Source: Acidimicrobiaceae bacterium
GTDB lineage: Bacteria > Actinomycetota > Acidimicrobiia > Acidimicrobiales > RAAP-2
Reading direction: 5' to 3'
Length of the DNA: 64,000 nucleotides
NCBI GenBank assembly: GCA_027306605.1
Contig: DAHUZK010000074.1
Coordinates: 1-64,000 of the forward strand
Part shown: positions 3,285-58,297 of the stretch, piece by piece
Position numbering within the stretch: position 1 is the first letter of the stretch
Layout: each line of letters opens with the position of its first letter
The notes under the pieces: model-generated
What the model was told of the DNA's origin: nothing
Database searches by the model: none
What the model saw: only the letters and a program-made list of their open reading frames with translations
Translations under genes and position numbers: made by a program

Positions 3285-4055
3285 GCCACGCCCGCCTGAA
3301 CCTCCCGGCGTGCCCGCCACCTGGGACAGGCGGGGGAACCGGCGCAGCCGGCCGAGCGGTCCGAGCCTTCCGGCGTCCACGCCGTGGTCGGCCGCGTTGA
3401 GCAGGCGCAGGTCGCCGCGGCTGTTGCCGTAGGCCCACAGCACCGGCTGCTCGCCGGCGGACCCCGACAGCAGGCCGGCGGAGCGCAGGTGCACGATCAA
3501 GCGGGCGTACTTCTCGGCGCCCCGGCAGTTCTTGCCTTCGTAACCACCGGTCAGCAGGCCACCGCCCCCGACGGCCAGGCGGGTGGCCACGACGCCGTCG
3601 ACGCCCAACTGGGCCCCGGCGGGACTGACGTAGCACTCGGGGGAGGCCGAGACGATCACGATGTAGTGGCCCTGGCGGCGGTGCCACTCGAGGCGCCGCC
3701 GCGTGTCGTCGCGCAGGTGGCGCGCCAGGTGGCGCCGGGCGAAGGTGACCGAGCGGCGGTCCACCTCCTCGACCGGCATCCCGCCGAGGAGGCGATGGAA
3801 GACCTTCTCCTTGACCTCGTCGGCCGCGGTGCCGCCGACGAGGGCGGCGCGCAGCAGCGCGGGGGAGAGGCGCACGACGGTGCCCACCACGGGCAGGAGG
3901 CCGCGCAAGCTGATCAGAAAGGGGAACGTGCTCCCGATGTCGGTCAGGGTGCCGTCGAAGTCGAAGGCCGCGACGGTCTGGCGCCCGCGCCCGGACCCTC
4001 CCGCCGCCGTGGTGTCAGCCGAGCGCAGCGCCACCGCGACCCGCACCCCCGGCAA
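3246..4055 (-). CDS. HAD-superfamily IB phosphatase
   Basis: AAFDFDGTLTDIGSTFPFL motif I; IVIVSASPECYVSP; AYGNSRGDLRLLNAADH. Confidence 0.8.
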   Translation of the reverse strand: MPGVRVAVALRSADTTAAGGSGRGRQTVAAFDFDGTLTDIGSTFPFLISLRGLLPVVGTVVRLSPALLRAALVGGTAADEVKEKVFHRLLGGMPVEEVDRRSVTFARRHLARHLRDDTRRRLEWHRRQGHYIVIVSASPECYVSPAGAQLGVDGVVATRLAVGGGGLLTGGYEGKNCRGAEKYARLIVHLRSAGLLSGSAGEQPVLWAYGNSRGDLRLLNAADHGVDAGRLGPLGRLRRFPRLSQVAGTPGGSGGRGSGRRGGDPDHVA

Positions 4056-4842
4056 ACCGCGCCGCGCCCTCCAGGGCCTCCCCGCTGCTCACCACGTCGC
4101 GCCCGCGCCGGGCCTCGTTCACCGCCGCCTCCTCCTCGGTCAGGCCCCACTGCTCGAGCGCGCTCATGCGGTCCGAGCGCAGGCAGGTCTGGGGCAGCGC
4201 CGCCAGCTGGTGGGCCAAGGCCAGGGACGCCGCCAGGGCCTGGCCCGGCGGGACAACGCGGCTGACCAGACCCATCTCGAGCGCCTCGGGTGCCCGCACG
4301 GCCCGCCCGGTCAAGATGAGGTCCATGGCCCGGCCGTGGCCGACGAGGCGCGGCAGGCGCACCGTGCCCAGGTCGCACAGCGGCACGCCGAAACGCCGGC
4401 AGAAGACGCCGAACACCGCGTCCTCGGCGGCCACCCGCAGGTCGCACCACAGGGCCAGCTCGATCCCGCCGGCCACGGCGTAGCCCTCGACGGCGGCGAT
4501 GACCGGCTTGGACAGCGTGAGCCGGGTCGGGCCCATGGGCCCGGGGCCGACGTCGGGGATGGGGCGGCGGTCGCCCGCGGCCACCGCCTTGAGGTCGGCG
4601 CCGGCGCAGAACGTGCCCTCGGCGCCCGTGAGCACGGCCACGGAGCGGGCGTCGTCGTGGTCGAAGGCGACGAAGGCCTCCCGGAGGCGGTCGGCGCACG
4701 GGCCGTCGACGGCGTTGCGCCGTTCGGGCCGGGTGATCGTGACGACGCTGACGGGACCGTCGTGCTCCACGGCGACCGGGTCGGTCCGGGAGGGCACGTC
4801 ACCGCCCGAATCGGCCGGTCGCCGTTCGGGCGCGCGAGGCAT
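4015..4842 (-). CDS. Enoyl-CoA hydratase/isomerase family protein
   Basis: VAVLTGAEGTFCAGADLKAVA, KPVIAAVEGYAVAGGIELALWCDLRVAAEDAVFG crotonase signature. Confidence 0.9.
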   Translation of the reverse strand: MPRAPERRPADSGGDVPSRTDPVAVEHDGPVSVVTITRPERRNAVDGPCADRLREAFVAFDHDDARSVAVLTGAEGTFCAGADLKAVAAGDRRPIPDVGPGPMGPTRLTLSKPVIAAVEGYAVAGGIELALWCDLRVAAEDAVFGVFCRRFGVPLCDLGTVRLPRLVGHGRAMDLILTGRAVRAPEALEMGLVSRVVPPGQALAASLALAHQLAALPQTCLRSDRMSALEQWGLTEEEAAVNEARRGRDVVSSGEALEGAARFAGGAGRGGAALG

Positions 4843-4962
4843 GGTGGCATTCTCGCATGGCGCGGCGGGCTGCCCGCACATCGAGCCTCCACCGCTTCCC
4901 AGGTCGGAGCGGGATTCGGCACGACCGCCGGGCGTCAGGGTCGGGGAGCCCGGGAAATATGA

Positions 4963-4982
4963 CCAATCGTGTCGACAATTGG
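4963..4982. promoter_or_regulatory. Candidate operator dyad CCAATnGT-N4-ACnATTGG upstream of peroxiredoxin
   Basis: CCAATCGTGTCGACAATTGG, 16 of 20 bases in symmetric agreement. Confidence 0.4.
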
Positions 4983-5043
4983 CGTCGCGCCCGGTAAGGT
5001 CTCCGGGCACCCACCGACGACCCGATCCGACTGAGGAGGAACC

Positions 5044-5679
5044 ATGGCCGTACGCCTCGGGGACACCGCTCCCGACTTCACCGCCGACACGACCGACGGC
5101 AAGATCAACTTCCACGAATGGCTCGGCGACAGCTGGGGCATCCTCTTCTCGCACCCCAAGGACTACACCCCGGTCTGCACGACCGAGCTGGGCGCGTTCT
5201 CCAAGGCCAAGCCCGAGTTCGACAAGCGCAACACCAAGCTCATCGGCCTCTCGGTCGATTCGGTCGAGTCCCACAAGGGCTGGGCGGGCGACATCAAGGA
5301 GACCCAGGGCTCGGCCCTCAGCTTCCCCCTCATCGGCGACGAGGACCGCAAGGTCGCGGACCTCTACGACATGATCCACCCCAACGCCGACAACACCTTG
5401 ACGGTGCGCTCGGTCTTCATCATCGGCCCCGACAAGAAGATCAAGCTGACCCTGACCTACCCCGCCTCGACCGGGCGCAACGTGGACGAGATCATCCGGG
5501 TCCTCGACTCGCTGCAGCTGACGGCCGACTACTCCGTCGCCACGCCGGTGAACTGGAAGGAGGGCGAGGACGTCATCATCGCTCCGGCCGTGAGCGACGA
5601 GGACGCCAAGGGCCGATTCCCCAAGGGCTGGAAGGCCCTCAAGCCGTACCTGCGGGTGACGCCCCAGCCCAACCGCTGA
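5044..5679 (+). CDS. 1-Cys (Prx6-type) peroxiredoxin
   Basis: GILFSHPKDYTPVCTTELGAFSK; LTYPASTGRNVDEIIRVLDSLQLT; CTP.NWK.G C-terminal Prx6 pattern. Confidence 0.93.
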   Translation: MAVRLGDTAPDFTADTTDGKINFHEWLGDSWGILFSHPKDYTPVCTTELGAFSKAKPEFDKRNTKLIGLSVDSVESHKGWAGDIKETQGSALSFPLIGDEDRKVADLYDMIHPNADNTLTVRSVFIIGPDKKIKLTLTYPASTGRNVDEIIRVLDSLQLTADYSVATPVNWKEGEDVIIAPAVSDEDAKGRFPKGWKALKPYLRVTPQPNR

Positions 5680-5725
5680 GGAGGCGCCTCCGCCTGCCGT
5701 CACAGCGCGGCGAGAGGATGGCGGC

Positions 5726-6319
5726 ATGCGCGAACCCGAAGTCTTCGAGCTGGCCGACCGGGCGATGGCCCGCGTCGTCGCCCGCATCGCCCCCGACCAG
5801 TGGGACATGGTCCTGCCGGCGTCGTTCGCCACCACGGCGCGGCCCGCGCCGCCCGTCCTGCGCGAGCTGATCAACTACCACGCCTACGACGACGCCTGGG
5901 TTCCCGACATGCTGGCGGGGCGCACCATGGCCGAGGTCGGGGAGAACAGGTACGACGGCGACCTGTTGGGTAACGACCCGGCGGGGAGCTTCGAGGCCAT
6001 CGTGCAGCGGGCCTGTGCGGCCGCGGCGGCCGTCACCGACCTCGACGCGGTGGCCCACCTCTCCTTCGGTGACTACACGGTGCGCGAGTACTTCTGGCAG
6101 ATCAACTCGTTCCGGGCTCTGCGCGCCCACGACATCGCACGGGCCATCGGCGCCGAGCCCGACCTACCCGAGGCGCTCGTGCAGGGCGTCTGGGACGAGG
6201 TCAGTCCCCACGCCGAGGAGTGGCGACAGATCGGCGTGTTCGGAGCGGCGGTCTCCGTGCCGCCCGACGCCCCACTGCTCGACCGCCTCCTGGGCCTGAC
6301 GGGTCGCGCGCCACGCTGA
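5726..6319 (+). CDS. DinB/mycothiol-dependent maleylpyruvate isomerase-like (TIGR03086-type) protein
   Basis: Overall pattern AD..MARVVARI.PDQWD..LP...LRELINYHAYDDAWVPDMLAG. Confidence 0.65.
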   Translation: MREPEVFELADRAMARVVARIAPDQWDMVLPASFATTARPAPPVLRELINYHAYDDAWVPDMLAGRTMAEVGENRYDGDLLGNDPAGSFEAIVQRACAAAAAVTDLDAVAHLSFGDYTVREYFWQINSFRALRAHDIARAIGAEPDLPEALVQGVWDEVSPHAEEWRQIGVFGAAVSVPPDAPLLDRLLGLTGRAPR

Positions 6320-6340
6320 GTGTGGCCCTCCGACCAGCTG

Positions 6341-6440
6341 GGTCAGGTCCGGTGGCGGGTCAGGCCCAGTGGCGGGTCAGGCCCAGTGGCAGGTCAGGCC
6401 CAGTGGCGGGTCAGGCCCGGTGGCGGGTCAGGTGGGAGGG
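6341..6440. repeat. 17-bp tandem repeat (GGTCAGGCCCAGTGGCG), five full copies plus a partial sixth
   Basis: GGTCAGG recurs at 6341, 6358, 6375, 6392, 6409, 6426. Confidence 0.95.
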
Positions 6441-8227
6441 ACCAGATCGTCGCGCAGCTCGCGCTTGAGCACCTTGCCCTGGGGGTTGCGCGGCAACGGC
6501 TCGCCGCGGAACCAGATATGGGTCGGCACCATGAAGCCGGCCAGGCGGGCCTTGACGTGCTGGCCCAGCTCCTCGGCGGTCACCTTCGCTCCGGGGCGCA
6601 GGACTACGGCCGCCCCGACCTCCTCGCCGAGAGTCGGATGAGGCACGCCGATGACGGCGCAGTCGGCGACCGCCGGGTGTTCGAACAACGCGGCCTCGAC
6701 CTGGACCGAGTACACGTTCTCGCCGCCTCGGATGATCATGTCCTTGGCGCGGTCGACGATGTAGATGAATCCCTCGTCGTCGAGTTGGGCCACATCGCCC
6801 GTGTGGAGCCAGCCCTTCGAGAAGGTCTTGGCGGTCTCCTCCGGGCGGTTCCAGTAGCCCCGCACCACGTTGGGTCCCTTGATCCACAGCTCGCCCCTCA
6901 CGTCGGGGCCGTGCGGGGCCGCGGGGTCGGGCTCGTCGCCGTCGTACCCCTCCTCCACGACGGCGACGTCGCAGACCGGCACCGGCGGACCGACGCTGTC
7001 GGGCTTGCGCACGTAGTCGCCGCCCGAATTCATGGACGTCACCGAGGAGGTCTCCGTCAGCCCGTAGCCGTTGGAGGGTTGGCCCACCGGCCAGGCCTCC
7101 CGAATACGGCGCACCAGGTCCGGCGGCGCCGGTGCACCACCGTAGGACACACCGCGGATGGAGGACGTGTCGTACTTGGCGAAGTTCGGGGAGTCGAGGA
7201 CCTGCATGACCATGGCGGGCACGCCCCCGAAGGTGCCGATCCGCTCCCGCTCGATCAGCTCGAGCGCACGCTCCGGGTCGAAGTGGTGCATCATCACGAT
7301 CTTCCCTCCGGCCGCGGTGTTGGTGACCATGACGGAGTGGCAGCCCGTGGCGTGGAACAGGGGCACCGAGAGCAAGAAGGCGGGCTGGTGCCGTTCGGTC
7401 TCGGCCTCCTCGGTCGGTACGACAGAGCTGCCGAAGCGCAGTCCGCCCCGGGTGTTGAGGAAGAACAGGCTCATCAGGTTCGTGACCATGTTGCGGTGGG
7501 TGCCGACGGCGCCCTTGGGGCGGCCGGTGGTGCCCGACGTGTAGAAGATGGTGGCGTCGTCCTCTGGGTCGATGGCGACGTCGGGTGGGGTGGCCGACTC
7601 CGAGACGTTGCCCAGCGCCAAGGGGAACGGCCACTCGGGCACCGGCGGGGCTCCTCCAGGCGGCGTGTAGACGGCGAGCGGCGCCCTGGGTGCGCTGCGA
7701 TGTTCGTCGGCCACCACGAGTGCGCCGAGCGACGCCAAGCCCCCGAGGAAGGGCCGGATGCGCTCGGCCCGCTCGGTGTCGACGAAGGCGACCTTCGAGC
7801 CGGAGTCCTCGAGTCCGTAGCGCAACTCCTCGCCGCTCCACCAGGCGTTGAGGGGCACGACGATGGCGCCGGCCAGGATGGCGCCCCAGAACGCCATGAC
7901 CCATTCGGGGATGTTGCGCATGACGATGGCGACACGGTCGCCCTTCACGACGCCGAACTCCTCGCGGAGGCGGTGCGCCAGCGTGCCGGCGATGCGGTAG
8001 TGCTCGGCGAAGCTCGTCCGCTCGTCCTCGTAGACGAGGAAGGCGGCGTCACCGTGGGCGAGCGACATGTCGATGACCGTCCGCAGGGACGGTGGGGCGT
8101 TCTTCCAGGTCCGGGTGAGCACGCCGCGGATGTCGCGCTCTTCCATCTCGAACATCTCGCCCGGCGCGGTCAGCGCGGCGTTGGCCTCTGCCAGCGTCAT
8201 CGTAGGGGTGTCCTTGCCTGCGCTCAC
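6428..8227 (-). CDS. Class I adenylate-forming acyl-CoA synthetase
   Basis: DDATIFYTSGTTGRPKGAVGTHRN; WLHTGDVAQLDDEGFIYIVDRAKDMIIRGGENVY. Confidence 0.93.
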   Translation of the reverse strand: MSAGKDTPTMTLAEANAALTAPGEMFEMEERDIRGVLTRTWKNAPPSLRTVIDMSLAHGDAAFLVYEDERTSFAEHYRIAGTLAHRLREEFGVVKGDRVAIVMRNIPEWVMAFWGAILAGAIVVPLNAWWSGEELRYGLEDSGSKVAFVDTERAERIRPFLGGLASLGALVVADEHRSAPRAPLAVYTPPGGAPPVPEWPFPLALGNVSESATPPDVAIDPEDDATIFYTSGTTGRPKGAVGTHRNMVTNLMSLFFLNTRGGLRFGSSVVPTEEAETERHQPAFLLSVPLFHATGCHSVMVTNTAAGGKIVMMHHFDPERALELIERERIGTFGGVPAMVMQVLDSPNFAKYDTSSIRGVSYGGAPAPPDLVRRIREAWPVGQPSNGYGLTETSSVTSMNSGGDYVRKPDSVGPPVPVCDVAVVEEGYDGDEPDPAAPHGPDVRGELWIKGPNVVRGYWNRPEETAKTFSKGWLHTGDVAQLDDEGFIYIVDRAKDMIIRGGENVYSVQVEAALFEHPAVADCAVIGVPHPTLGEEVGAAVVLRPGAKVTAEELGQHVKARLAGFMVPTHIWFRGEPLPRNPQGKVLKRELRDDLVPPT

Positions 8228-8838
8228 GGCGCCTCCTTCCGGGCGGTCTGGGGGTGCTGCTCGGTTTCGGCCGCGGCGTCTCCGGGAGCGGCCGGGCGCT
8301 CCAAGGGGGCGTCGAAGACGGCGGTGCGGTAGTAGGCCAGCTCGGCGACACTCTCGCGGATGTCCTGCAGAGCCCGGTGGCCGCCCTTCTTGACCGGTGC
8401 CGCCTTGATGACGTCGGGCCGCCAGCGCCGGCAGAGCTCCTTGATGGTCGACACGTCGACCGACCGGTAGTGGAGGAACTCCTCGATCTCGGGGAGTTGG
8501 GCCGCCAGGAAGCGACGGTCGGTGCCTATGGAGTTCCCGGCCAGGGGGACCGACCGCGCCTCGCTGATGTGCTTCTGGAGGAAGGCCAGGGTCTGGGCCC
8601 CGGCGTCGGCGAGGGCCAGCGTGGACGCCTCCATATCGGCGAGCAGGCCCGAGCGGGTGTGCATGGCACGGACGAATTCGTCCATGTCCTCGATCTGCGT
8701 GGCCGTAGCGTGGACGACGAGGTCCGGACCTTCCTCGAGGATGTTCAGGTTGTCGTCGGTGATGAGTGCAGCGATCTCCACGATCGCATGGCGGCCCGGG
8801 TCGAGCCCTGTCATCTCGAGATCGATCCAGGCCAGCAT
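8224..8838 (-). CDS. orn: Oligoribonuclease
   Basis: LAWIDLEMTGLDPGRHAIVEIAALITDDNLNILEEGPDLVVH; RRFLAAQLPEIEEFLHYRSVDVSTIKEL; HRALQDIRES. Confidence 0.95.
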   Translation of the reverse strand: MLAWIDLEMTGLDPGRHAIVEIAALITDDNLNILEEGPDLVVHATATQIEDMDEFVRAMHTRSGLLADMEASTLALADAGAQTLAFLQKHISEARSVPLAGNSIGTDRRFLAAQLPEIEEFLHYRSVDVSTIKELCRRWRPDVIKAAPVKKGGHRALQDIRESVAELAYYRTAVFDAPLERPAAPGDAAAETEQHPQTARKEAP

Positions 8839-8903
8839 GCGGGGCGATGCTACCGGCCGCCCTCCCCCCGGTCGCCTTGCACCCGGGGCGATATCCTCCG
8901 GCG

Positions 8904-9347
8904 GTGCTGCGTGTTCCCCTGCACCAGCTGGACCCCGACCTGGCTCTGCCCGGTTATGCGCGGGACGGCGACGCCGGTGCCGATCTCATCGCCCGCTGCG
9001 ACGTCGTCCTGGCCCATGGCGGGGGACGGGCCGTGGTCCCGACCGGCGTGGCGGTGGCCATCCCCACCGGGTACGCCGGCCTGGTGCTGCCTCGCAGCGG
9101 GCTGGCCGCCCGGCACGGCATCACCTGCCTGAACGCCCCGGGCCTGGTCGACTCGGGATACCGGGGGGAGATCCAGGTCGTGCTGGTCAACCACGATCCC
9201 GTCCACGACTACCACGTGAGCCGGGGGGACCGCATCGCCCAGCTGGTGCTGATCTGGGCCGAGCGGGCGACCTTCGAGGCCGCGACCGCGGCGGGACTGG
9301 GCGAGACGCAGCGAGGCCAGGGCGGCTTCGGGCACACCGGGACCTGA
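8904..9347 (+). CDS. dut: dUTP diphosphatase
   Basis: GYARDGDAGADL; LPRSGLAARHGITCLNAPGLVDSGYRGEI; RGDRIAQLV; QGGFGHTGT. Confidence 0.95.
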   Translation: MLRVPLHQLDPDLALPGYARDGDAGADLIARCDVVLAHGGGRAVVPTGVAVAIPTGYAGLVLPRSGLAARHGITCLNAPGLVDSGYRGEIQVVLVNHDPVHDYHVSRGDRIAQLVLIWAERATFEAATAAGLGETQRGQGGFGHTGT

Positions 9348-9363
9348 GGAGCCAAAGAGATCG

Positions 9364-10803
9364 ATGCAGCCACTCGTCGGCCTGGACGCCGCCTTCCTGT
9401 CGCTCGAGACGCCGACGACGCCCATGCACGTGGGCGTGGCGTTGCTGCTGGACCCGCCCGAAGGCACTCGGTCCCTCTTCTCGTCCTCGACCCGGTACGC
9501 GCAGATCCGCCGCATCATCGAGCAGCGGCTCCATCTCATCGCGCCCCTCCGCCAACGGGCGCTGCGGGTGCCTCTGGGTCTGCACCACCCGGTCTGGGTG
9601 GACGACCCGGACTTCGATCTCGACGACCATCTCACCCGGGCCAGCCTGCCGTCACCCGGCCGGCGGCCCGAGCTCGACGCCTACGTGGCCTCCATCATGA
9701 GCCGGCCGCTCGATCCGGACCGGCCCTTGTGGGAGATGCACGTGGTGGAGGGACTCGAGGACGACCGTATCGCCCTGGTCGCCAAGGTGCACCACGCCGT
9801 CCTCGACGGGGTGGGTGGCGCTTCGGTGCTGGCGGCCTTCCTCGACGTCACACCGCGCAGCCGCGTCGTCGGTCTGCCGCCCGAGTGGGATCCCGCACCG
9901 CTACCGTCGCAGGCGCAGCTGCTGCGCCACGCAGCCACGTCGCTGGCGCGCCAACCGGGTGAGACCCTCAGCACGCTCCAGGCGGGCGTCGAGACAGTGG
10001 CCGACCTCGGCCTGCACAACCGCGAGTTGAGCGGGAGGGGAGAGCGGCCGCCACCCGCGTTCTTCGCGGCACCGCGCACCTCGTTCAACGGCGCCGTATC
10101 GAACCGCAAGCGCTACGCGACGGTCTCGGTGCCACTCGAGGACGTCAAGCTGGTCAGGCGCGTGTTCGAGGCCACCGTCAACGACGTGATCCTCGCCATC
10201 GTCTCGGGCGGTCTGCGCCGCTTGCTCGAGGACCGTGGCGAGGAGGTCGAGCGCTCACTCGTCGCCATGGTGCCGGTCTCCACCCGCAGCGAGGAGCAGG
10301 CGGACGGATTGGGGAACCAGATCTCGGGGATGCTGGTCTCCCTGGCGAGCGACATCGACGATCCGGTCCAGCGGCTCGATGCGATCTCGGAGTCGGCTGG
10401 GGTGGCCAAGGAACAGGAGAAGCTCCATCGCGGGCGCCTGCTCGGTGACCTGGCCCAGATCGCCGTGCCCGCCGTGGTCTCACGCATGGCGCGCGCCGTG
10501 GCCGGTGCCCGGTTGTTCGACAAGGTGCGGCCACCATTCAACGTGACGGTGTCGAGCGTGCGCGTACCCGATGTGGCGCTCTTCTGCGCCGGCAGCCGCG
10601 TGGTTGCCATGTACCCGGTGGGTCCGATGGCCGAGGGCATCGGCGTGAACGTGACGTCGTTCTCGTATCTCGATCGCGTGCACTTCGGACTCCTGGCCTG
10701 CCGGCGGCTCATCCCAGAACTCGACGAGCTGGCGACGCACTTCGACGACGCGCTGGGCGAGCTGGTGGCGTGCGCACTCGACGCGGAGGGCGCCATCGCC
10801 TGA
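9364..10803 (+). CDS. Wax ester synthase/diacylglycerol acyltransferase (WS/DGAT)
   Basis: KVHHAVLDGVGGASVL (HHxxxDG); NDVILAIVSGGLRRLL; FNVTVSSVRVPDVALFCAGSRV. Confidence 0.92.
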   Translation: MQPLVGLDAAFLSLETPTTPMHVGVALLLDPPEGTRSLFSSSTRYAQIRRIIEQRLHLIAPLRQRALRVPLGLHHPVWVDDPDFDLDDHLTRASLPSPGRRPELDAYVASIMSRPLDPDRPLWEMHVVEGLEDDRIALVAKVHHAVLDGVGGASVLAAFLDVTPRSRVVGLPPEWDPAPLPSQAQLLRHAATSLARQPGETLSTLQAGVETVADLGLHNRELSGRGERPPPAFFAAPRTSFNGAVSNRKRYATVSVPLEDVKLVRRVFEATVNDVILAIVSGGLRRLLEDRGEEVERSLVAMVPVSTRSEEQADGLGNQISGMLVSLASDIDDPVQRLDAISESAGVAKEQEKLHRGRLLGDLAQIAVPAVVSRMARAVAGARLFDKVRPPFNVTVSSVRVPDVALFCAGSRVVAMYPVGPMAEGIGVNVTSFSYLDRVHFGLLACRRLIPELDELATHFDDALGELVACALDAEGAIA

Positions 10804-10810
10804 CCGAGAG

Positions 10811-10855
10811 GCGGGCGGCGGGGCCGAGTGGCGGAGCTCGGCCCTCACCGCCCGC
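10811..10855. terminator. GC-rich hairpin between convergent genes
   Basis: GCGGGCGGcGGGGCCGAG ... CTCGGCCCtcaCCGCCCGC inverted repeat. Confidence 0.6.
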
Positions 10856-10912
10856 GCTGCTTCGGGTGGCCGTTGGGATCGGCGGCGGCCGGCTAGCGAC
10901 CGAGATGTCCAA

Positions 10913-11278
10913 CTAGAAGACGCTGCTGGCGGTGGCGGCGCTGCTCGACGGGGCCCCAGCTCCCGATGGCGGCACGTGGGCTCCGGGCCCGGCGTTGGAG
11001 CCGCTCCCCATGTTCGGGCAGTTGTGCGTCCCTCCCGAGGGCGCGTTGGTGTTGCCGCTCGAGCCCGAGGACGGGGACGTCGTGGACGAGCCGGACGAGC
11101 CGTTCGGGCTGGAGCTGGAGCTGGCGTTCGAGCTCGAGGCCGCATTGCTCGAGGTGGCGGCTGTGCCGGACGCCGTGGCGTTGCTGGAGGTGGCCGCATC
11201 GGCGACGAGCGCGCCGCCGGCCACGAGGCCGGAGGTGAGCGCGCCGGCGGCGAGCACAGTGCGGAGGCGGATCTTCAT
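10913..11278 (-). CDS. Secreted Ser/Asn/Gly-rich low-complexity protein
   Basis: MKIRLRTVLAAGALTSGLVAGGALVADAA signal peptide then SSSNASSSSSPNGSSGSSTTS tract. Confidence 0.6.
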   Translation of the reverse strand: MKIRLRTVLAAGALTSGLVAGGALVADAATSSNATASGTAATSSNAASSSNASSSSSPNGSSGSSTTSPSSGSSGNTNAPSGGTHNCPNMGSGSNAGPGAHVPPSGAGAPSSSAATASSVF

Positions 11279-11462
11279 CAGGATTCCCTTTCGTCGTCTT
11301 GGTCGTCTGTCCCCGGTCCATTCGGACCAGCATGCGCAGGATGCGCCCCCGACCTTGAGGCCAGCGCAGAACGGCGTGAGGCAGTCGTCCGAGTTTCCTG
11401 ACGATCGCGTGACGTCTCTCAGGAACGACGGGACCCGGAGGGACAGGGTGCGCGTCCGTGGC

Positions 11463-12251
11463 TCAGCGCTTGCGGGCTCGCCAGCAGTAAGAGCGCATGG
11501 GTACATCGACCACCTCGCTGCCACTGAAGCGCGTCTCGGTCTCGAGGTACCGGGTCATGGTGTCGAGATGCCGGCGACGGGCGGCGTCGTCCATGGTGAT
11601 GACCGCACTGTAGGTGGTGGCGAGAGCAACGAGGTCCTCTTTGGACATGGGCCGGGTCCAGCGGAAGAGCTCAGTTTCCGGCTCGTCGAAGGGACTCGGG
11701 CCCGCGGCCTCGACATCGACGACATGCCGGTGCCGCCGGCGCGCGTCGAGGCTCACCCGTTGCTCGGGACGGAGCTCGGTCCCACCCGCCCACAACGTGC
11801 GCATCCAGTCGACGGTACGGTCCGGGCCGCTCCAGGCCAGGGCGAAGCGGCCGCCGGGTCGCAAGACCCGGGCCACCTCGGGGACGGCCCGCCGCTCGTC
11901 CACCCAGTGCCAGGCCGACTGGGCGACGACCAGATCGAAAGAGGAGTCCTCCGCGGGGAGTGCCTCAGCGGTGCCGGCCGTGATCGCGAGACGCGCCCCG
12001 CCGGCGTCAGCTCCGGCGAGGAGGGCGCGCATTCTCTCGTCGGGTTCCACTGCGGTCACGTGCGCCACGCGCTCGACCAGTAACCGGGTGAGGATCCCCG
12101 TTCCGGCCCCGAACTCGAGCGCGCGCGCGGCGTCGTCGGGAACCAGGAAGTCGACTGCCTCCGCGGAGGGGCGGGGGCGAAGCCGGTCGTACTCCGCGGC
12201 AACGGCGCCGAAGGATCGGCTCAGGACGGCGGTGGTCGCGTCTTGGCGCAC
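11463..12251 (-). CDS. Class I SAM-dependent methyltransferase
   Basis: ALEFGAGTGILTRLL; VTAVEPDERM; FDLVVAQSAWHWVDERRAVPEVARVLRPGGRFAL. Confidence 0.88.
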   Translation of the reverse strand: MRQDATTAVLSRSFGAVAAEYDRLRPRPSAEAVDFLVPDDAARALEFGAGTGILTRLLVERVAHVTAVEPDERMRALLAGADAGGARLAITAGTAEALPAEDSSFDLVVAQSAWHWVDERRAVPEVARVLRPGGRFALAWSGPDRTVDWMRTLWAGGTELRPEQRVSLDARRRHRHVVDVEAAGPSPFDEPETELFRWTRPMSKEDLVALATTYSAVITMDDAARRRHLDTMTRYLETETRFSGSEVVDVPMRSYCWRARKR

Positions 12252-12385
12252 CAGGGCAAATCTACCGACGAGGGGCCGCCGGGCGCGGCCGCCCGGCGTG
12301 GCCCTCGACTCGACGCCATCGCTGGCCAGCGAGCACGGTGGCCAGCGGTCCGCTGATCCTCGGCGCGCTAAAGTGGTGGTTCAAC

Positions 12386-12460
12386 GCGGAAGTGGCGCAG
12401 CGGTAGCGCATCACCTTGCCAAGGTGAGGGTCGCGGGTTCGAATCCCGTCTTCCGCTCCA
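12386..12460 (+). tRNA. tRNA-Gly (anticodon GCC), CCA encoded
   Basis: GCGGAAGTGGCGCAGCGGTAGCGCATCACCTTGCCAAGGTGAGGGTCGCGGGTTCGAATCCCGTCTTCCGCTCCA folds as a cloverleaf. Confidence 0.96.
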
Positions 12461-12463
12461 GGT

Positions 12464-12487
12464 CAGCGGCTCCTTTTGGGGCCGCTG
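12464..12487 (+). terminator. Hairpin just after tRNA-Gly
   Basis: CAGCGGCTCC-TTTT-GGGGCCGCTG, one G-U pair. Confidence 0.6.
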
Positions 12488-12572
12488 CGTCGCGTTTTGG
12501 GGGCTCCATGTCGCGTCCATCGCGCGGGCGCGCGCGATGGAGCGCCGATTTCGGGGCCGAAATGCGTGCTCG

Positions 12573-13395
12573 TCAGCGGTCGTCAGCGGGTCCGCCCGAG
12601 CGGCGAAAGGGGCGCACATCAGCCAGCCGGGCGAGCTCCGAGAGCGCCTCGGCGATGGCCCGATCGCGATCCGCCGTGGCGTGTTGGTACAGCAGCGTCG
12701 CCCTCGGGTTGGCGTGCCCCATGCGTGCCATGAGCTCCTTGGTCGACGCCCCGGTGGCCGCGGCCAAGGTGTTGCCGGTGTGGCGCAGGTCGTGGAAGTG
12801 GAGGTGCTCGACTCCCACCGCTGTGCGCGCCGTGCGCCAGTGGCGGGAGAACGTCTTGCGGTACAGCACGACCCCGCCCGGTCCGCTGAACAGCGGAGCG
12901 TCGGCTTTTGCTCCGACGTGGTCGCGCAAGTGACCCTCGAGCTCGGGCACCACGTGGGGAGGGATCGTCACCTTCCGTCTTCCGGCGGCGCTCTTCGGGG
13001 GACCGACGACGACGGTCCCGTCGGTGCGTTCGTAGGTCGAGCCCACCACCTCGACGGTGCCGTGGAGCACGTCGATCCGTCGGCGGGTGAGAGCGAGCAG
13101 CTCGCCCAGGCGCAAGCCGCACCAGGCCCCGAGGACCACCATGGCCCGATTAGGAAGGATGCATCGCTTCGACCAGTGCGTCGACCTCGGCGATGGTGGC
13201 GACCGGGCGCTCCGTAGATTCGCCGCTCGCCGCACCGCGCACGACACAAGGATTCCGCCACACGATCTCGTCCTCGACCGCCGTGGCGAAGATGGCATGG
13301 AGCACTCGGTAGATCCTGGCCGTGGTGGCCGGTGCCAACCGGGTCCCGAGCTCGGCGTTCCACGCGCGCGCCTCGGACGGCGTCACCTTGCCCAT
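12573..13395 (-). pseudogene. Tyrosine recombinase (phage-type integrase), frameshifted and N-terminally truncated
   Basis: Frame 1: MGKVTPSEARAWNAELGTRLAPATTARIYRVLHAIF...VDALVEAMHPS*; frame 2 continues RAMVVLGAWCGLRLGELLAL...HFHDLRHTGNTLAAATGASTKELMARMGHANPRATLLYQHA. Confidence 0.85.
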
Positions 13396-13638
13396 GGCTC
13401 GCCGCCTCTGATCGGACCACGTGAGCGTCGAGAACTCGATCGTGAATCCACGGCTTCGACCGACTCGGGAGCGAGGACGAGGCGGGGTCCGGCAGCGTCA
13501 CCGAACGGCTGGACCGTCTCGGGAAGGCGGTCTTCGACCAGTCTGCATGAGAGGTTTACAGGGGTGCCGGGGTGTCCCGTAACGCCGGCCCGAGGTGCCA
13601 CCGTTCGGCCCTGGGGGCACCCCCTGATCTCACTGAGT

Positions 13639-13668
13639 ATACAATGAAATTACTATCTCATACAATGA
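13639..13668 (+). promoter_or_regulatory. Candidate operator/promoter of the VapBC-like module: two ATACAATGA direct repeats 21 bp apart
   Basis: gtATACAATGAaattactatctcATACAATGAtc, AT-rich island directly upstream of the antitoxin start. Confidence 0.5.
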
Positions 13669-13683
13669 TCAGAGGGTGCCCAG

Positions 13684-13929
13684 ATGACGACCAACTACGT
13701 GATGAAGGTTTCCTCCAACGGTCAGGTATCGATCCCGGCCGAGGCGCGGGCACGGTGGAACGTCGAGAAGGTGGTCATGGTCGACCTCGGGGACCGTGTG
13801 GTCGTGCGGCCGCTGCCGGATAAGCCCGTTGGGGCTCTCAAGGGCAAATACCGCCGCCGCGGGGCGAACAGCGATCGCATGCGCCGCCAGTCGAGGATCG
13901 AGGAAGCTGCTCGCGAACGCCGTCGATGA
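13684..13929 (+). CDS. AbrB/MazE/VapB-type antitoxin
   Basis: VMKVSSNGQVSIPAEARARWNVEKVVMVDLGDRVVVRPLP swapped-hairpin AbrB motif. Confidence 0.8.
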   Translation: MTTNYVMKVSSNGQVSIPAEARARWNVEKVVMVDLGDRVVVRPLPDKPVGALKGKYRRRGANSDRMRRQSRIEEAARERRR

Positions 13930-14360
13930 TCGTTCTCGACTCCTTCGCCGTTCTCGCTCTGCTCCGCGATGAGCCTGCAGCCGCCCAGGTCCAGCGGCTC
14001 ATCGAGGACGATGAGGAGGCGGCGCTCACGGTTCTCGGTGTCGCCGAAGTCGTCGATTGTCTGGTGCGATTGATCGGAGCCGATGAAGACTCCGCCGTCC
14101 TCGACTTGGCGCAGCTCGGCCTGGCCTCGCCTTCCCCAGTCAAGGTTGGGTTGGCGCTACAGGCCGGACTTCTTCGAGCCCGGTACTACCACCGCAGAAC
14201 CCGAGCCGTGAGTCTCGCCGACTGTGTTGCAGCCGAAACGGCACGGCCATCCGGCGATCGGCTCGCTACTGCCGACCCACATCTGCTCGATATGTGCCAC
14301 GAGGAAGGCATCTCGTTCATTGCGTTACCGGATAGCACCGGATGCACGTGGTCGTCCTGA
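13926..14360 (+). CDS. PIN-domain ribonuclease toxin (VapC-like)
   Basis: MIVLDSFAVLALLRDEPAAAQV; SLADCVAAETA; LATADPHLLD; ATGA overlap with antitoxin. Confidence 0.85.
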   Translation: MIVLDSFAVLALLRDEPAAAQVQRLIEDDEEAALTVLGVAEVVDCLVRLIGADEDSAVLDLAQLGLASPSPVKVGLALQAGLLRARYYHRRTRAVSLADCVAAETARPSGDRLATADPHLLDMCHEEGISFIALPDSTGCTWSS

Positions 14361-14396
14361 ACACCGGGTAGAGGGCCAGCCCTTACCCTCTATGAC

Positions 14397-15335
14397 GTGG
14401 GTTCAGCGTCTCGGTCTGACGGCGAGCTGATGACGGCAGTTCAGGCCCTCGGTGACAAGGGCTTGGCAGTTGAGGGTGTCCACGTATGCGCACACAACCG
14501 GCCGCCAATCGAATACCACTGGGTAGCCGACGTGCGCCGCGACATCTTCTCGGCCTCAAAGACGTTCACCGCCGTGGCCATCGGTATCGCTGAGGGTGAG
14601 GGGCTACTTCATGTTGACGATGCGATCCTGTCTCACCTTGGTCACCTGACGTCTGCCCCGGCGAACGGTGTTGAGGCGATCACCATCCGGCACCTGCTCA
14701 CCATGACCTCCGGGATCGCCTACCGCTGGGAAGATCCGGACGCTGACCAGCCGGGGGATGCCGCAGTCGACATCCTGACGACACCGCTCGGTGCGGCGCC
14801 CGGGTCCGCCTTTGCCTATCGGGGCGCGAATACGTACCTGCTCAGCCGCATCATCCACACTTGCTCAGGCGAGGACTTGCGAGACTTCCTGTCTCCCCGC
14901 TTGTTCGCGCCGCTGGCCATCGGAAACCCGCAGTGGCTGCGATGCCCACTCGGGTACTCACTCGGTGCGGTTGGACTGCATTTGCGCACGGCCGAGGTCG
15001 CCAGACTCGGCCGCACCTTGCTCGATGGCGGCCGTTTCCTCGACAAGCAGTTGCTTCCGGCCAGCTTCGTGACGAGCATGACAGTCGACTGCGTGGCCAC
15101 CAACGGGCACGTCGCCACCGGCGCGACCGCACCCCACAAGGAGAATGCGCTCTACGGCCGCGGCGTCTGGTTGTGCCAACGGGACGACGCGTGGCGAATG
15201 GACGGCCTTTACGGGCAGTTCAGCGTGATCCTGCCCCGACATCGGGCGTGCGTGACCACGACTGCTCACTACAGAGGTCCCACCACTGACATTCTGGACG
15301 CCATCTGGTCGGATATCGTGCCAGCGCTGGACTGA
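14397..15335 (+). CDS. Serine hydrolase, class C beta-lactamase-like
   Basis: FSASKTFTAVAIG (SxxK), ITIRHLLTMTSGI, YRGANTYLLSRII. Confidence 0.8.
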   Translation: MGSASRSDGELMTAVQALGDKGLAVEGVHVCAHNRPPIEYHWVADVRRDIFSASKTFTAVAIGIAEGEGLLHVDDAILSHLGHLTSAPANGVEAITIRHLLTMTSGIAYRWEDPDADQPGDAAVDILTTPLGAAPGSAFAYRGANTYLLSRIIHTCSGEDLRDFLSPRLFAPLAIGNPQWLRCPLGYSLGAVGLHLRTAEVARLGRTLLDGGRFLDKQLLPASFVTSMTVDCVATNGHVATGATAPHKENALYGRGVWLCQRDDAWRMDGLYGQFSVILPRHRACVTTTAHYRGPTTDILDAIWSDIVPALD

Positions 15336-15489
15336 GCGGCAGGGTGTCTTCGACCACGGAGCACACCGTCCCAGAACGCCTAATACGGGGTATGGGAGCT
15401 ACCGCCGCAGGTCGTACTCCGCATAGCGCCCATCACGGACGGATGGTCAGCTCATTCCCGGCCCGTCACGGGCTCGTACGTCGCAACGA

Positions 15490-15583
15490 TCACACCTCGT
15501 CGATTAGATCGGCCACCATCAGCGACTGGAAGCTGACCACTGCCCATGATTGCCAGAACACCAGTGGTCTGCTCCTTGAGAGG
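15490..15583 (-). pseudogene. C-terminal remnant of dihydrofolate-reductase-like (RibD_C) gene
   Basis: LKEQTTGVLAIMGSGQL in one frame, then QSLMVADLIDEV* in the next; matches the LKEQPG..L.V.GSG.LVQSLM..DLIDE family pattern. Confidence 0.75.
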
Positions 15584-15586
15584 CAC

Positions 15587-17239
15587 TCAAAGAGAGTCAC
15601 CGGCGCCGGCCATGCCCACGATGGGCTTGTTGAGGCGCAGGGCCCCGGTCGAGCCATAGAAGTGGGCGTCACCGTAGGAGAAGATCCCTCCGTCGGAGGC
15701 CACCAGCCGATAGCCCTGTCCCGTCATGCTCGAGGTCATCCCCACCACCGGGGCGTTGAGCGCCTTGCCCCCCATCGAGCCGTAGAAGCGGGCGTCGCCG
15801 AAGCTGAAGACCCCGCCGTCGGAGGCAACCAGCCAGTAACCCTGCCCGTCAGAAGTGGTGGCCATGCCCACGACGGGTCGGTTGAGCGTCAGGGCGCCGG
15901 TCGAGCCGTAGAAGCCGGCGTCGCCGAAGCTGAAGACCCCTCCGTCGGAGGCCACCAGCCAGTAGCCGTGCCCGTCGGGGGTGGCGGCCATGCCCACGAT
16001 CGGGGCATTGAGCACCGTCCCGCTCATCGAGCCGTAGAAGCCGGCATCGCCGAAGGCATAGACCGCACCATCAGCACCGACCTCCCAGTAGCCCTTGGCG
16101 TCAGGAGTAGCGGCGATGGCGACGATGCCACCGCCTCCGTGGCTCGCGGCATCCCCGTAGTTGGGGGCGTTGCCGAAGCCGTAGACGTTCCCGTCGCGCC
16201 CGGCCAGCCAATAGCCGCACGCGCTCGAGGCGATGCCCACGATGTCGTTGACGCTGACATGCTCGCCGGGCAGTGACCCGTGGTAGGACGCGCCCCCGAA
16301 GGCGAAGGCCCCGCCGTCTGAGGCCACCATCTGGTAGCCGCTGTGGGCACAGCCTGGCCCGGGCTGCTGGGGAGCCGCTTGGGTGGTCACGACAGGTGAA
16401 GCCCCAAGCGGCGCCACCGACCCAGCTCCTTGGCTCTGCGAGACGGCGAACGTGTCGCTGCTGGCGCTCGAGGGAGCTGTCGCGTCGGCGTAGGTGATGG
16501 TGCAGATCGCGTTCGCCGCCAGCGTGACGGCGCTCACCGCGACGGTGCGCCCGCTGACCCCAGCCCCCCCACATGTCGAGGTCACAGTGCCCGGCTGGCC
16601 CGTCGTCGTGGTCGGATTGGTCCATCCACCCGGGATGCTCAGGTCGAGCTGCCCGCTGCTCATGCCGAGGGCATCAGCGGTGTAGGCGAAGACCAGTGTG
16701 TTGGTGCTCGAGGCTGTCACGGTCGAGGGGCTGACGGCCATGGTGCCCGCACCGGACTCAGCATTTACGGACACGCTCGGGGACGTGCTCAGGGCCTGAG
16801 CGGTGTCAGACGAGGTCTGGCCCTGATAGGCAGCGAAGGTGTCAGTCCCGGCCGCCGCCGGTGCGGTTGCGTCGGCGTAGGTGATGGTGCAGGTCGCGTT
16901 CGCCGCCAACGTCACACCGGAGAGTTCTATGAGATTGCCGTTGGTAGAGATGCTCGTCCCACACGTGCGGGACACGTGACCCTGAGTCGCCGTGGTAGAC
17001 GGTGTGGTCCACCCAACAGGGACGTTGAGGACGAGCGGACCTGCACTCATCCCTGCCGAGGTGGCCGTGTAGGTGAAGACCAGCGTGTTGGCATTTGAGC
17101 CCTCGACCACCGAGGTCGGGGAGACGGTCATGGTGCCCAGCCCTGCAGTTGCGGCTGCCGCAAGAGGCGCGCCCGCCACAAGGGCCATACCGACGAGCGC
17201 GAGCCCGCCCACGGCAGCCCCGGCGTACCGCAGCCATTT
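15587..17239 (-). CDS. Secreted protein: two ~110-aa SPTxVxxxNTLVFxYTA modules plus six GYWLVASDGG 42-aa repeats
   Basis: Signal peptide MKWLRYAGAAVGGLALVGMALVAGAPLAAAA; duplicated module LAANATCTITYADATAP / LAANAICTITYADATAP; C-terminal repeats; stop codon lies in the flanking 14-bp repeat. Confidence 0.8.
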   Translation of the reverse strand, partial: KWLRYAGAAVGGLALVGMALVAGAPLAAAATAGLGTMTVSPTSVVEGSNANTLVFTYTATSAGMSAGPLVLNVPVGWTTPSTTATQGHVSRTCGTSISTNGNLIELSGVTLAANATCTITYADATAPAAAGTDTFAAYQGQTSSDTAQALSTSPSVSVNAESGAGTMAVSPSTVTASSTNTLVFAYTADALGMSSGQLDLSIPGGWTNPTTTTGQPGTVTSTCGGAGVSGRTVAVSAVTLAANAICTITYADATAPSSASSDTFAVSQSQGAGSVAPLGASPVVTTQAAPQQPGPGCAHSGYQMVASDGGAFAFGGASYHGSLPGEHVSVNDIVGIASSACGYWLAGRDGNVYGFGNAPNYGDAASHGGGGIVAIAATPDAKGYWEVGADGAVYAFGDAGFYGSMSGTVLNAPIVGMAATPDGHGYWLVASDGGVFSFGDAGFYGSTGALTLNRPVVGMATTSDGQGYWLVASDGGVFSFGDARFYGSMGGKALNAPVVGMTSSMTGQGYRLVASDGGIFSYGDAHFYGSTGALRLNKPIVGMAGAGDSL

Positions 17240-17452
17240 CATACCCGCCCTAGAACGCAGCATGTGTGTACTCCCGTCTCCGACCTAACTCTGAGCCCCG
17301 AAGGATCCGGACCGCACGTCCGGCATGGCGCACCGTGCCGAGATGCCCGGGCGCATCTTGGAGGTCGGCTCGTCGTACTGCTTGCTTTACGGCAATTCGG
17401 TGTCACAACCCCGGTTCCTGGGGAACCGTCGGCTGCACCAGACGCACATGGA

Positions 17453-17510
17453 GGCACTCAAAGAAACCCGCTCAAAGAGAGGCACTCAAAGAGAGGCACT
17501 CAAAGAGAGG
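17453..17510. repeat. 14-bp tandem repeat GGCACTCAAAGAGA, four copies (two diverged); single extra copy at 15582-15595
   Basis: Units start at 17453, 17467, 17481, 17495. Confidence 0.95.
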
Positions 17511-17704
17511 GACTGCGGACGTTTCTGCGAGATCGCCGTGCAGCAACACGTCGAGTTGGGCCATCGAAGAGGCTCTGTCAGTGACCTGGAGGCGACGTAC
17601 TTGGGTGTGTCGTTGAGTGCAGAAGTGAACGGACTGTCGGGCTGCGAATTCCAGTGCGACAACAGCTGCTCGTACGTCCACCTCGTTCGCTCGGACACGA
17701 CCAT
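17511..17704 (-). pseudogene. Central remnant of the same dihydrofolate-reductase-like gene, frameshifted
   Basis: WTYEQLLSHWNSQPDSPFTSALNDTPKYVASRSLTEPLRWPNST then LLHGDLAETSAV in another frame; matches TYE.FA.YWP...ALN..PKYVVSRTLT.PL.W.NSTLL.GD. Confidence 0.8.
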
Positions 17705-17707
17705 TTG

Positions 17708-19120
17708 TCAGGGATTGGGCGGGTAGCTCACCGCGTTGCCAGCAGTTGTGATGCCGGCGTTGAGGTCGACCATCCAGTAACCGAAGCCACTGGGGGTGCT
17801 GGCAATGCCATCGGCGATGTCGCCACCCAGGTCGTGAACGTCGGGATGATTCCCTGGGGCATCGCCGAAGTTGTACACGGTTCCGTGCTGGGTGGCCAGC
17901 CAATAGCCATGGCCATCCGAGGTGGCGGCTATGCCAGTTATGGGCGAATCGAGATTCGTACCTCCCGTCGAGCCGTAGAACACGGCATCGCCGAAGCTGA
18001 AGATCCCGCCGTCGGAGGCCACCAGCCAGTAACCATTGCCGTCTGGCATGGCTGCCATCCCCACGATGGGTTTGTTCAGGTCGACGCCGGCCAAGGATCC
18101 AAAGCTCCGTGCGGCCCCGAACGGGTAGACGTTCCCGTCTGCCCCCACCAGCCAATACCCGTTGGCAACCGGATCACTGGCGATGCCGACGACGGGGCCG
18201 CTCGGGTTTGACACCGATCCTCCGGTGCCGACCGCGTCACCAAAAGCAGAGACGTGGCCGAGGTCATCGACCAGCCAGTAGCCGCCCCCATCGTGTGTGG
18301 CGGCGATACCCACGACCGGTTCGGCCAGGACTTCCGTCGAGAGGTCCCCGAAGTAGCCAGCGTCACCGAAGGTCAGCACCTCGCCGCCGTCGCCAGCCAC
18401 CCAGTATCCGTGGCCACTGGGGGAGGGGGCGATCGCCGTCGCGAACGGTGGAACATCAGGAGCGATGGCCATTCCCACGATGGGACTGTTGAGCGGGGTT
18501 CCCCCCGCTGAGCCCGCGAAGCCGGCGTCGCCGTAGCTGAAGATGCCGCCGTCGGAGGCCACGAGCCAGTAACCACCACCATCGTTGCTCGCCCCCATAC
18601 CCACGATGGGCTTGTTCAGATGGATGCTGCCGGTCGATCCGAAGAAGCCGGCGTCGCCGTAGCTGAAGATCCCACCGTCGGAGGCCACGAGCCAGTAGCC
18701 GCCACCGTCGGGTGTGGCCGCCATGCCGACGATGGGTTCGTTCAGATGGATGCTGCCGGTCGATCCGAAGAAGCCGGCGTCGCCGTAGCTGAAGATCCCA
18801 CCGTCGGAGGCCACGAGCCAGTAGCCGCCACCGTCGGGTGAGGCAGCCATACCGACGATCGGTTTGTTCAACGGAGTCCCGCCAGCGGATCCATAGAAGC
18901 CGGCATCGCTTCCGTAGGTGAAGACCCCACCGTCGGCTGCCACGAGTGTGTAGCTGTCCGGCCCGTTGTAGACATGAGCGCGAACGTGGCCAGTCGTCCG
19001 TAGCTCGGTATGAGAGATGGAAGAACCGACTGCAGCTGCGGCCATGGCGGGCGCCGAGGTCACGAGGATCGCCGCCGCAACGCTCGCTAGTACGGTCCGG
19101 CTTCCGAGACGGGTGCGCAT
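17708..19120 (-). CDS. Secreted protein made almost entirely of about ten [10 protein letters not shown]-type 42-aa repeats
   Basis: Signal peptide [30 protein letters not shown]; repeated [42 protein letters not shown]. Confidence 0.85.
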   Translation of the reverse strand: [470 protein letters not shown]

Positions 19121-19516
19121 GTGTGATCCCCCAAAGTCCTGGGTCCGAAGAGGCCGGCTCCGCAGCGTAGCCCGAGCCCTCCAAGAACGACATCCGCTCC
19201 CGACGAATCCCCACTTGTGTGCGGCTCGATTTCCGTCGTTCACCCCACCGCCCCGGCCCGGTGGGCACCGGGTCACGTATGCGCCAGGAGAACGCTGTCA
19301 GTCGTACTGGCTCCGTGGCACTTCGGGAGAGGCCATCAGCGTACGGTGCGTGAATCGGTCCTACCCGTTGGCCGAGCCCCCATCGGGCGCACGGATCTCA
19401 ACGGTGATCATGAGCCTTCATGGCGCCCCAACGAGTCCAGGTGTCACCTGACCATCGCGAACTGAGCTCTTCGAACCACGCTCGATGCGAATCGCGTATG
19501 CGCGTGCGTGGCTATG

Positions 19517-20653
19517 TCAGGGCAGCGCCTCAATCGGCGGAATCGTCATCGCCCGCTGCCGAGCGCCTCGGAGGGTCTCATCATCGACGTTGCCGTCAGG
19601 GGAACCCGCCACCAGGGGGGATCGGGTGAGGACGACCACACCTACGATGAGTACCGCGAGCGCCAGGATCTCGAGACCGATCCACAGCACGCCGCCACGC
19701 AAAATGTCGCCAAAGAGAGTGATGCCGAGCAGGATGCTGATGAGCGGATTGGTGGTGACCAGGGTTGTACGGGACGCCGTGATCGGACCGGCGTGGAGCG
19801 CGCTCTGAAGCAAAAAGACAGTCCCTATGCCGACGATCGCAAGCATGTAGGGCTCGAAATGGCTGAAGACGGCGCTCCAGCCGTGGCCCAGGTAGGTCGT
19901 GATCGACTTGGTCAGGGCCGAAGTGTAGGAGGCGGCCATCGCCGTGGCCGCGCCGAGCGCGGCGGCCCGCCACCACCGCGGACCCCGGAGCGCGCCGATG
20001 ATGGCAATGGCGATCGCTGCGGCCAAGATGCTTGTCGCAACCACCCACTGGTCGGTGGAAGGGAGTAGTTGTCCGCCGTGCGGGCGGGCGGCCAAGAAGA
20101 ACCCACTCAGTCCGAGCACGACCGTCACCGCTCCGACCCACTCCCGCACCCCGAGGCGGTAGCGGAACCAGGTGGCCAGGATCAGGAGAAGGAAGAGCAG
20201 CTCCGTCGTGAGCACGGGCTGTACCGTGCTCAACTGTCCGTGTTTGAGCGCCATCGCTACGAAGCCGAACTGCACCAGGCTGAGCACGAATCCGATGAGC
20301 CAGATCTTCTGGCGGACGGCATGGCCCATGAGGCTCGCCTTGAGGGCGGATGATGCAGGAGCCGTCTCCACACCCATGCGCTGGAGTACAGACGTCAGGG
20401 CGTTGGTGAAGGCGGCCAGAGCGGCGAACGAGACTGCGAACACGGCTGCGCTTTCTGAACGGGAGAGATGGCACGGTATCGCGAATTTTCGAATCGGTCT
20501 TGGCCAGGTTCTCATCCGCCTGGCATCCCTACGGTCCACGCCAATCGAAAGGCACGAGGTGGAAGTCGGGCGATGCTGGCCCACCTCGATCGGATTACCG
20601 GGTGACGCTGGGTCGGCTCGAGGGGCCGATGACGTCGATCGTAGGGACGCCAC
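19517..20653 (-). CDS. DMT-superfamily (EamA-like) transporter; start uncertain
   Basis: Ten hydrophobic segments, e.g. QKIWLIGFVLSLVQFGFVAMALKHGQLSTVQPVLTTELLFLLLI, TTLVTTNPLISILLGITLFGD. Confidence 0.7.
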   Translation of the reverse strand: MASLRSTSSAPRADPASPGNPIEVGQHRPTSTSCLSIGVDRRDARRMRTWPRPIRKFAIPCHLSRSESAAVFAVSFAALAAFTNALTSVLQRMGVETAPASSALKASLMGHAVRQKIWLIGFVLSLVQFGFVAMALKHGQLSTVQPVLTTELLFLLLILATWFRYRLGVREWVGAVTVVLGLSGFFLAARPHGGQLLPSTDQWVVATSILAAAIAIAIIGALRGPRWWRAAALGAATAMAASYTSALTKSITTYLGHGWSAVFSHFEPYMLAIVGIGTVFLLQSALHAGPITASRTTLVTTNPLISILLGITLFGDILRGGVLWIGLEILALAVLIVGVVVLTRSPLVAGSPDGNVDDETLRGARQRAMTIPPIEALP

Positions 20654-31602: not shown

Positions 31603-32155
31603 GCAAATCGCACCGGACAAGCGTCGGCCGGACAAGGGTCGAGCGGAACAGCATCGAGCGGAACAGCGAGGGCTCGCCGAGGACCTCGGATCGGTTCTGG
31701 CCCGGCTCTACGGGTTCCTGCGCCGCTCCATCCTGCCCGAGCAGATGAGCCTGACCCAGGCCCTGGCCCTGGGCACGCTGCGCGACCTCGGCCCGCAGCG
31801 CGTGACGGACCTCGCCGGGATCGAGGGGGTCCGACAGCCCACCTGCACTGCCCTCGTCAATGCCATGGAGGCGCAGGGCTGGGTGGTGCGCACGGTGGAC
31901 GAATCCGACCGCAGGGCCGTCGTCGTGGAGCTGACGTCCGACGGTCTGGCCGTCCTCGAGGCCATGACCGAGACGCGGGCAGCCGTCTTGGAGCGCTATC
32001 TCCAGGTGCTCTCCGAGGGCGAGCGAGAAGGACTCGCAGCCGCCATTCCGAGCCTGAAGAAACTGATCGAGCTCGGCGCCGAAGGTGAAGGTCTCGAGAC
32101 ATGGATGCGCGCGACGACTGCCGGCCACGCCCGCCCGGTTCGGACCCAGGACTGA
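31601..32155 (+). CDS. MarR-family transcriptional regulator
   Basis: VTDLAGIEGVRQPTCTALVNAMEAQGWVVRTVDESDRRAVVVELTSDGLAVLEAM. Confidence 0.88.
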   Translation: MQIAPDKRRPDKGRAEQHRAEQRGLAEDLGSVLARLYGFLRRSILPEQMSLTQALALGTLRDLGPQRVTDLAGIEGVRQPTCTALVNAMEAQGWVVRTVDESDRRAVVVELTSDGLAVLEAMTETRAAVLERYLQVLSEGEREGLAAAIPSLKKLIELGAEGEGLETWMRATTAGHARPVRTQD

Positions 32156-32190
32156 CTCGGACCCAGGACTAACTCGGACCCAGGACTAAA
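32140..32190. repeat. 17-bp tandem repeat TCGGACCCAGGACTRAC x3 spanning the MarR stop codon
   Basis: Units at 32140, 32157, 32174. Confidence 0.95.
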
Positions 32191-57109: not shown

Positions 57110-57110
57110 C

Positions 57111-57152
57111 TCAGAGCACGACGCTCAGAGCACGGCGCTCAGAGCACGACCA
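57111..57152. repeat. 14-bp tandem repeat TCAGAGCACGRCGC x3 spanning the ADH stop codon
   Basis: TCAGAGCACG at 57111, 57125, 57139. Confidence 0.95.
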
Positions 57153-58224: not shown

Positions 58225-58245
58225 GGTGCTCCTCCCCGTCGGCGG

Positions 58246-58297
58246 GACGACGTGATGTCGGCGAGACGACGTGATGTCGGCGAGACCACATGATGCC
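58246..58297. repeat. 19-bp tandem repeat GACGACGTGATGTCGGCGA, two copies plus a diverged partial third
   Basis: Units at 58246, 58265, 58284. Confidence 0.9.

Follow-up and report, generated by a model that had tools for sequence, protein, structure and literature searches.

The locus lies in a 64,000-nucleotide stretch of the genome of an Acidimicrobiaceae bacterium (hereafter the window), and its genes are read in the sense of the minus strand. An ORF for a 558-aa protein with six 41-42-aa repeats (15587..17263) occupies most of a 1,921-bp insert (15584..17504, minus strand), whose limits, array included, were set by the identity of its two ends and by alignment to a homologue. On either side stand the parts of a remnant RibD_C/DHFR-like gene, both on the minus strand: the 5′ part at 17511..17684, carrying one frameshift, and the 3′ part at 15447..15577, likewise with one frameshift and missing roughly 105 bp internally. 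The truncated remnant is abutted by a paralogue from the same repeat-protein family (17708..19276, minus strand; 522 aa as the longest ORF, with the true start probably near 19120). A 14-bp tandem array marks the upstream end of the insert (17449..17510, minus strand, from TRF and from reading the sequence), and a single copy of the repeat marks its downstream end (15578..15596, minus strand).

The array units, read on the minus strand from 17510 down to 17449, are CCTCTCTTTGAGTG, CCTCTCTTTGAGTG, CCTCTCTTTGAGCG, GGTTTCTTTGAGTG and CCTCCA. Two are exact (17497-17510 and 17483-17496), the third (17469-17482) has one change and the fourth (17455-17468) is degenerate, so that the four tandem units of the preliminary description are present as an array but not as identical copies. 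TRF places the array at 17451-17514 (period 14, 4.6 copies, score 93), and with head-to-tail units in the range of about 10-100 bp it has the form of a minisatellite or VNTR. At the right end the minus strand reads CTCTCTTTGAGTGCCTCTC, and the single copy reported there is an exact 19-bp match that contains the TGA at 15587-15589. These 19 bp are the longest exact identity between the two ends (15578-15596 against 17491-17509); a direct repeat of this length about 1.9 kb apart turned up only once among 40,000 pairs of sites drawn at random from the same genome, and of 489 genes tested, the 488 others have no direct repeat above 16 bp at their flanks. A genome-wide search had been set beforehand as the test that could overturn the description, by finding the repeat scattered. 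In the 3.36-Mb assembly, searched with up to two mismatches, the 14-mer has three exact copies, all at the locus, and the sole site outside it within one mismatch is C2:20677; the sequence is thus private to the locus, and the earlier view that nothing similar lies elsewhere holds for the whole assembly.

Each repeat unit consists of the hexamer CCTCTC and eight further bases, TTTGAGTG, and a comparison with the same genus separates the two. The stretch 17533-17684, just outside the array, matched one place in a same-genus genome at 81% DNA identity, an intact RibD_C (dihydrofolate-reductase-like) gene (homologue G004 L041/L060; Pfam E=1.4e-17). The protein of this homologue aligns to window 17683-17549 with 89% amino-acid identity (RWTYEQLLSHWNSQ...) and to two further pieces, LKEQTTGVLAIMGSGQL and SLMVADLIDE, at 15580-15496 beyond the insert; the last 34 bp of the gene are recognisable near 15463-15496. 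When the flanks are rejoined at CCTCTC, they form one continuous alignment to the homologue that stays in frame at the joint (GCAGTC-CCTCTC-AAGGAG against GTTGGCACCCTCAAGGCT); under a single insertion, an empty allele would read ...GCAGTCCCTCTCAAGGAG..., without TTTGAGTG. Because the homologue aligns on both sides and the frame is kept on rejoining, the insert is real and CCTCTC is a duplicated or shared target; the 1.9-kb stretch is an insertion splitting the RibD_C gene. The insertion and the presence of the repeat at both of its ends, as first proposed, are therefore borne out, and the GAGAGG (CCTCTC) hexamer that had been picked out in the unit corresponds in this alignment to the duplicated target. 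Its left copy (17505..17510, minus strand) is joined to the 5′ part of the remnant and its right copy (15578..15583, minus strand) to the 3′ part. The 6-bp candidate target duplication is measured at one insertion only, and microhomology, as a shared 6-mer, could account for it. The other eight bases, TTTGAGTG, are absent from the RibD_C target gene and foreign to it. An imperfect inverted repeat bridges the right joint (minus strand 15560-15605), with one arm in the insert and the other in the RibD_C remnant; as a hairpin it is weak (z -2.2, 5/200 shuffles).

The RibD_C remnant is a pseudogene: it has two frameshifts in total and the deletion of about 105 bp, and it lacks a 5′ part (homology begins at residue 97 of the 231-aa L041 ORF). 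The missing 5′ part was found neither upstream of the 522-aa paralogue nor elsewhere in the window. A remnant without its 5′ part implies that the locus was rearranged more than once; a second insertion, in which the 522-aa paralogue would also have entered this RibD_C gene, was considered and set aside, the missing part not being found in the window.

The 558-aa protein begins with a probable signal peptide, judged by eye, followed by two related N-terminal repeats with a weak match to BslA, below the curated cut-off, and then by the six 41-42-aa repeats; it is probably secreted. The GC content of the gene is 0.68, against 0.59 for the RibD_C remnant. Its repeat-domain family has 98 matching stretches in this genome, and among family ORFs 15 of the 47 with a stop, the 558-aa gene included, end within 15 residues of LNxPIVGM, two of the 15 being unconvincing by eye. 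Since at least 12 other members stop where it does in the repeat domain, the gene is probably complete, its end at ...LNKPIVGMAGAGDSL being normal for the family, and a truncated gene was rejected as the leading view. The TGA stop (15587-15589, in the minus-strand ORF) does lie inside the repeat, as described earlier; that the repeat supplies it is doubtful on the same count of family members. None of the four congeners searched has the gene, and a donor search in 397 genomes of the order returned N-terminal homologues only 39-48% identical.

The surroundings form a low-GC region. From 12461 to about 38000 the GC content is 0.655, against 0.71-0.72 in the flanks, and coding is sparse; the stretch adjoins a tRNA-Gly(gcc) (12386..12460, plus strand), the probable integration site, beside which lies a tyrosine recombinase (12573..13298, minus strand). 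The low GC, the adjoining tRNA-Gly and the recombinase together make 12386-38000 probably a decayed genomic island; in the window, we found no second copy of the tRNA end and no att repeat. The insertion may predate the arrival of the island in this genome. The island also holds a MazE-like antitoxin and PIN-domain gene pair (13684-14360).

Terminal repeats of a mobile element were one of three origins suggested for the array. A non-autonomous element or cassette with 14-bp direct terminal repeats, mobilised in trans, would account for a clean insertion with a 6-bp target duplication, in a genome where the gene family has dozens of members and at a place 2-3 kb from a tyrosine recombinase beside a tRNA. 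The locus resembles an IS- or MITE-type insertion in that foreign DNA interrupts a gene and is flanked by a candidate 6-bp direct duplication, but both ends of the insert read TTTGAGTG in the same orientation, as direct rather than inverted repeats, and we found no terminal inverted repeats at the ends, no transposase domain in the insert and no att-like structure. There is one copy only, with ends unique in the genome, whereas IS elements and MITEs are marked by several copies at unrelated sites or by a transposase. An integron-type cassette fits no better: the insertion is inside a gene, the recombinase is outside the insert, and this recombinase reaches 21 of the 265 bits of the integron-integrase cut-off, far below it, and is generic. 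Searches of plasmid and viral-contig collections gave no matches. Across 30 family members and 459 other genes tested as possible mobile cassettes, flanking direct repeats occur at the inserted gene alone, those longer than 12 bp being absent at the 29 other family members. One insertion without relatives does not make an element, and we regard this origin as improbable. The joint also resembles microhomology-mediated (illegitimate) integration in lying at a 6-bp sequence without enzyme-specific ends, and from this joint microhomology and target duplication are indistinguishable.

The array has to be read against its genomic background. We counted 90 private-unit intergenic minisatellites in 862 kb of this genome, or 0.68 per intergenic kb. 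The count comes from two separate samples (G000) whose densities agree, 53 arrays over 77 kb of noncoding DNA and 37 over 55 kb (0.68/kb each). Per kb, the congeners G001, G002, G003 and G004 have 0.12, 0.11, 0.06 and 0.03 arrays, and G062, a genome of the same order with higher GC, has 0.11, so that this genome, with about 100 arrays per Mb, carries them at 6 to 20 times the density of its congeners, the noncoding fractions differing somewhat among the genomes compared. A first-order Markov model of intergenic DNA predicts no arrays. Periods centre on 13-21 bp and copy numbers on 2-5, and the array at 17451-17510 is typical. The window holds other short tandem arrays of unrelated units (6340-6432, 32140-32189, 57110-57150, 58238-58295 and 3270-3299), all but the one at 58238-58295 overlapping stops of called genes; for the first three, the genes concerned end at 6428, 32155 and 57139. 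Among the arrays counted in this genome, 22 overlaps fall on stop codons (10.9 ± 3.2 expected; as many in 1 of 500 random placements) and 4 on start codons (12.3 ± 3.3 expected; as few in 2 of 500), figures that are approximate because the genes come from a simple codon-usage caller.

Array units recur near other arrays no more than in random intervals. The unit of the 32140-32189 array, TCGGACCCAGGACT, has one more copy 13 kb away at 19134-19148, immediately upstream of the 522-aa paralogue, and is almost absent from the rest of the genome; the second copy is not clearly beyond chance. Absence of NucS or SbcD as the cause of a repeat burst was rejected, both being below cut-off in all five genus members and so without power to discriminate. 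A high array density in external actinobacteria was likewise discarded, as it was produced by one dispersed 27-28-bp family in Microlunatus kandeliicorticis (L029), where eleven arrays of the unit (CCGGTGGTCACGCGGACGCGTGC...), with as many as 30 copies, stand apart from one another in a 15-kb stretch (4795-19785). Among known systems, the MIRU-VNTR loci of mycobacteria are similar in that short tandem units lie in intergenic DNA and the genome is of high GC. Isolates differ in the copy number of mycobacterial VNTRs, which may lie between adjacent genes (PMC2734929). Most units here measure 10-28 bp, each being private to one site, whereas MIRUs are 40-100 bp and dispersed (PMC2734929). We found no literature on stop-codon-centred arrays of this kind, though VNTR work exists.

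This background bears on the remaining explanations. Stacked insertion scars, in which repeated insertion and excision at CCTCTC left footprints of the target duplication plus 8 bp, would yield just such units, every one of them equal to that sum. Yet throughout the genome there are arrays whose units are unrelated but whose period range and copy numbers are the same; the repeat sequence has left no other excision footprint there, and nothing else speaks for this suggestion, which we consider very improbable. It is somewhat easier, though still unlikely, that the array came first, as a 14-bp minisatellite in a dying RibD_C gene, and that a fragment carrying the repeat-protein gene was later inserted between two of its units, the gene taking its stop codon from the array. 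Arrays of this sort are frequent in the genome, several of them include a stop codon, and recombination would naturally target units lying on either side. This order of events nevertheless requires the gene to have been cut by chance where its family normally ends, and TTTGAGTG is absent from the target gene and is not significantly templated by the sequence that flanks it (an 8-bp match, equalled by 12.5% of shuffles).

The best explanation, with a probability of roughly 0.62, is a single insertion into the RibD_C gene followed by slippage of the junction repeat. Of the three origins first suggested, slippage after one insertion is thus the one we retain, and its product would be typical of the array background of the genome. 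The whole of a repeat-protein gene, together with about 190 bp upstream of it, would have been inserted once into the RibD_C/DHFR-like gene at CCTCTC, leaving CCTCTC on both sides beside the 8-bp TTTGAGTG at both ends, which together form the 14-bp repeat. The left copy would then have expanded to four units by replication slippage while the disrupted RibD_C gene decayed. Two routes to the joint are conceivable, and the order of events, like the route, is one we infer. The first is a staggered cut with fill-in, followed by slippage. In the second, of which we are less sure, the insert would have been a circle carrying an array downstream of its stop codon and recombining at the shared 6-mer. 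The circle would place same-phase units on both sides in one step, with no later slippage at the locus, and would also explain why the unit overlaps the stop of the gene, as arrays in this genome tend to do. The joint is equally consistent with either route. Most simply, a junction repeat made by the insertion was multiplied by the process behind the other arrays of the genome; the repeat itself is probably without function, and the array is an ordinary scar of an insertion, in a genome where short tandem repeats are unusually abundant.

The locus offers a clear case of an insertion with a multiplied junction repeat, and a relative allows its empty site to be recognised. Of more importance than the array itself is the background of arrays, as the density differs by an order of magnitude between closely related genomes, and this contrast opens the cause of the tandem duplications (a repair defect, a polymerase or a nuclease) to comparison within the genus. 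We tentatively suggest, as a possibility less likely than not, that the species underwent a genome-wide burst of short tandem duplications, which favour stop codons and are able to seed or mark gene insertions. If so, a distinct mutational process specific to this lineage would have produced the locus among others.
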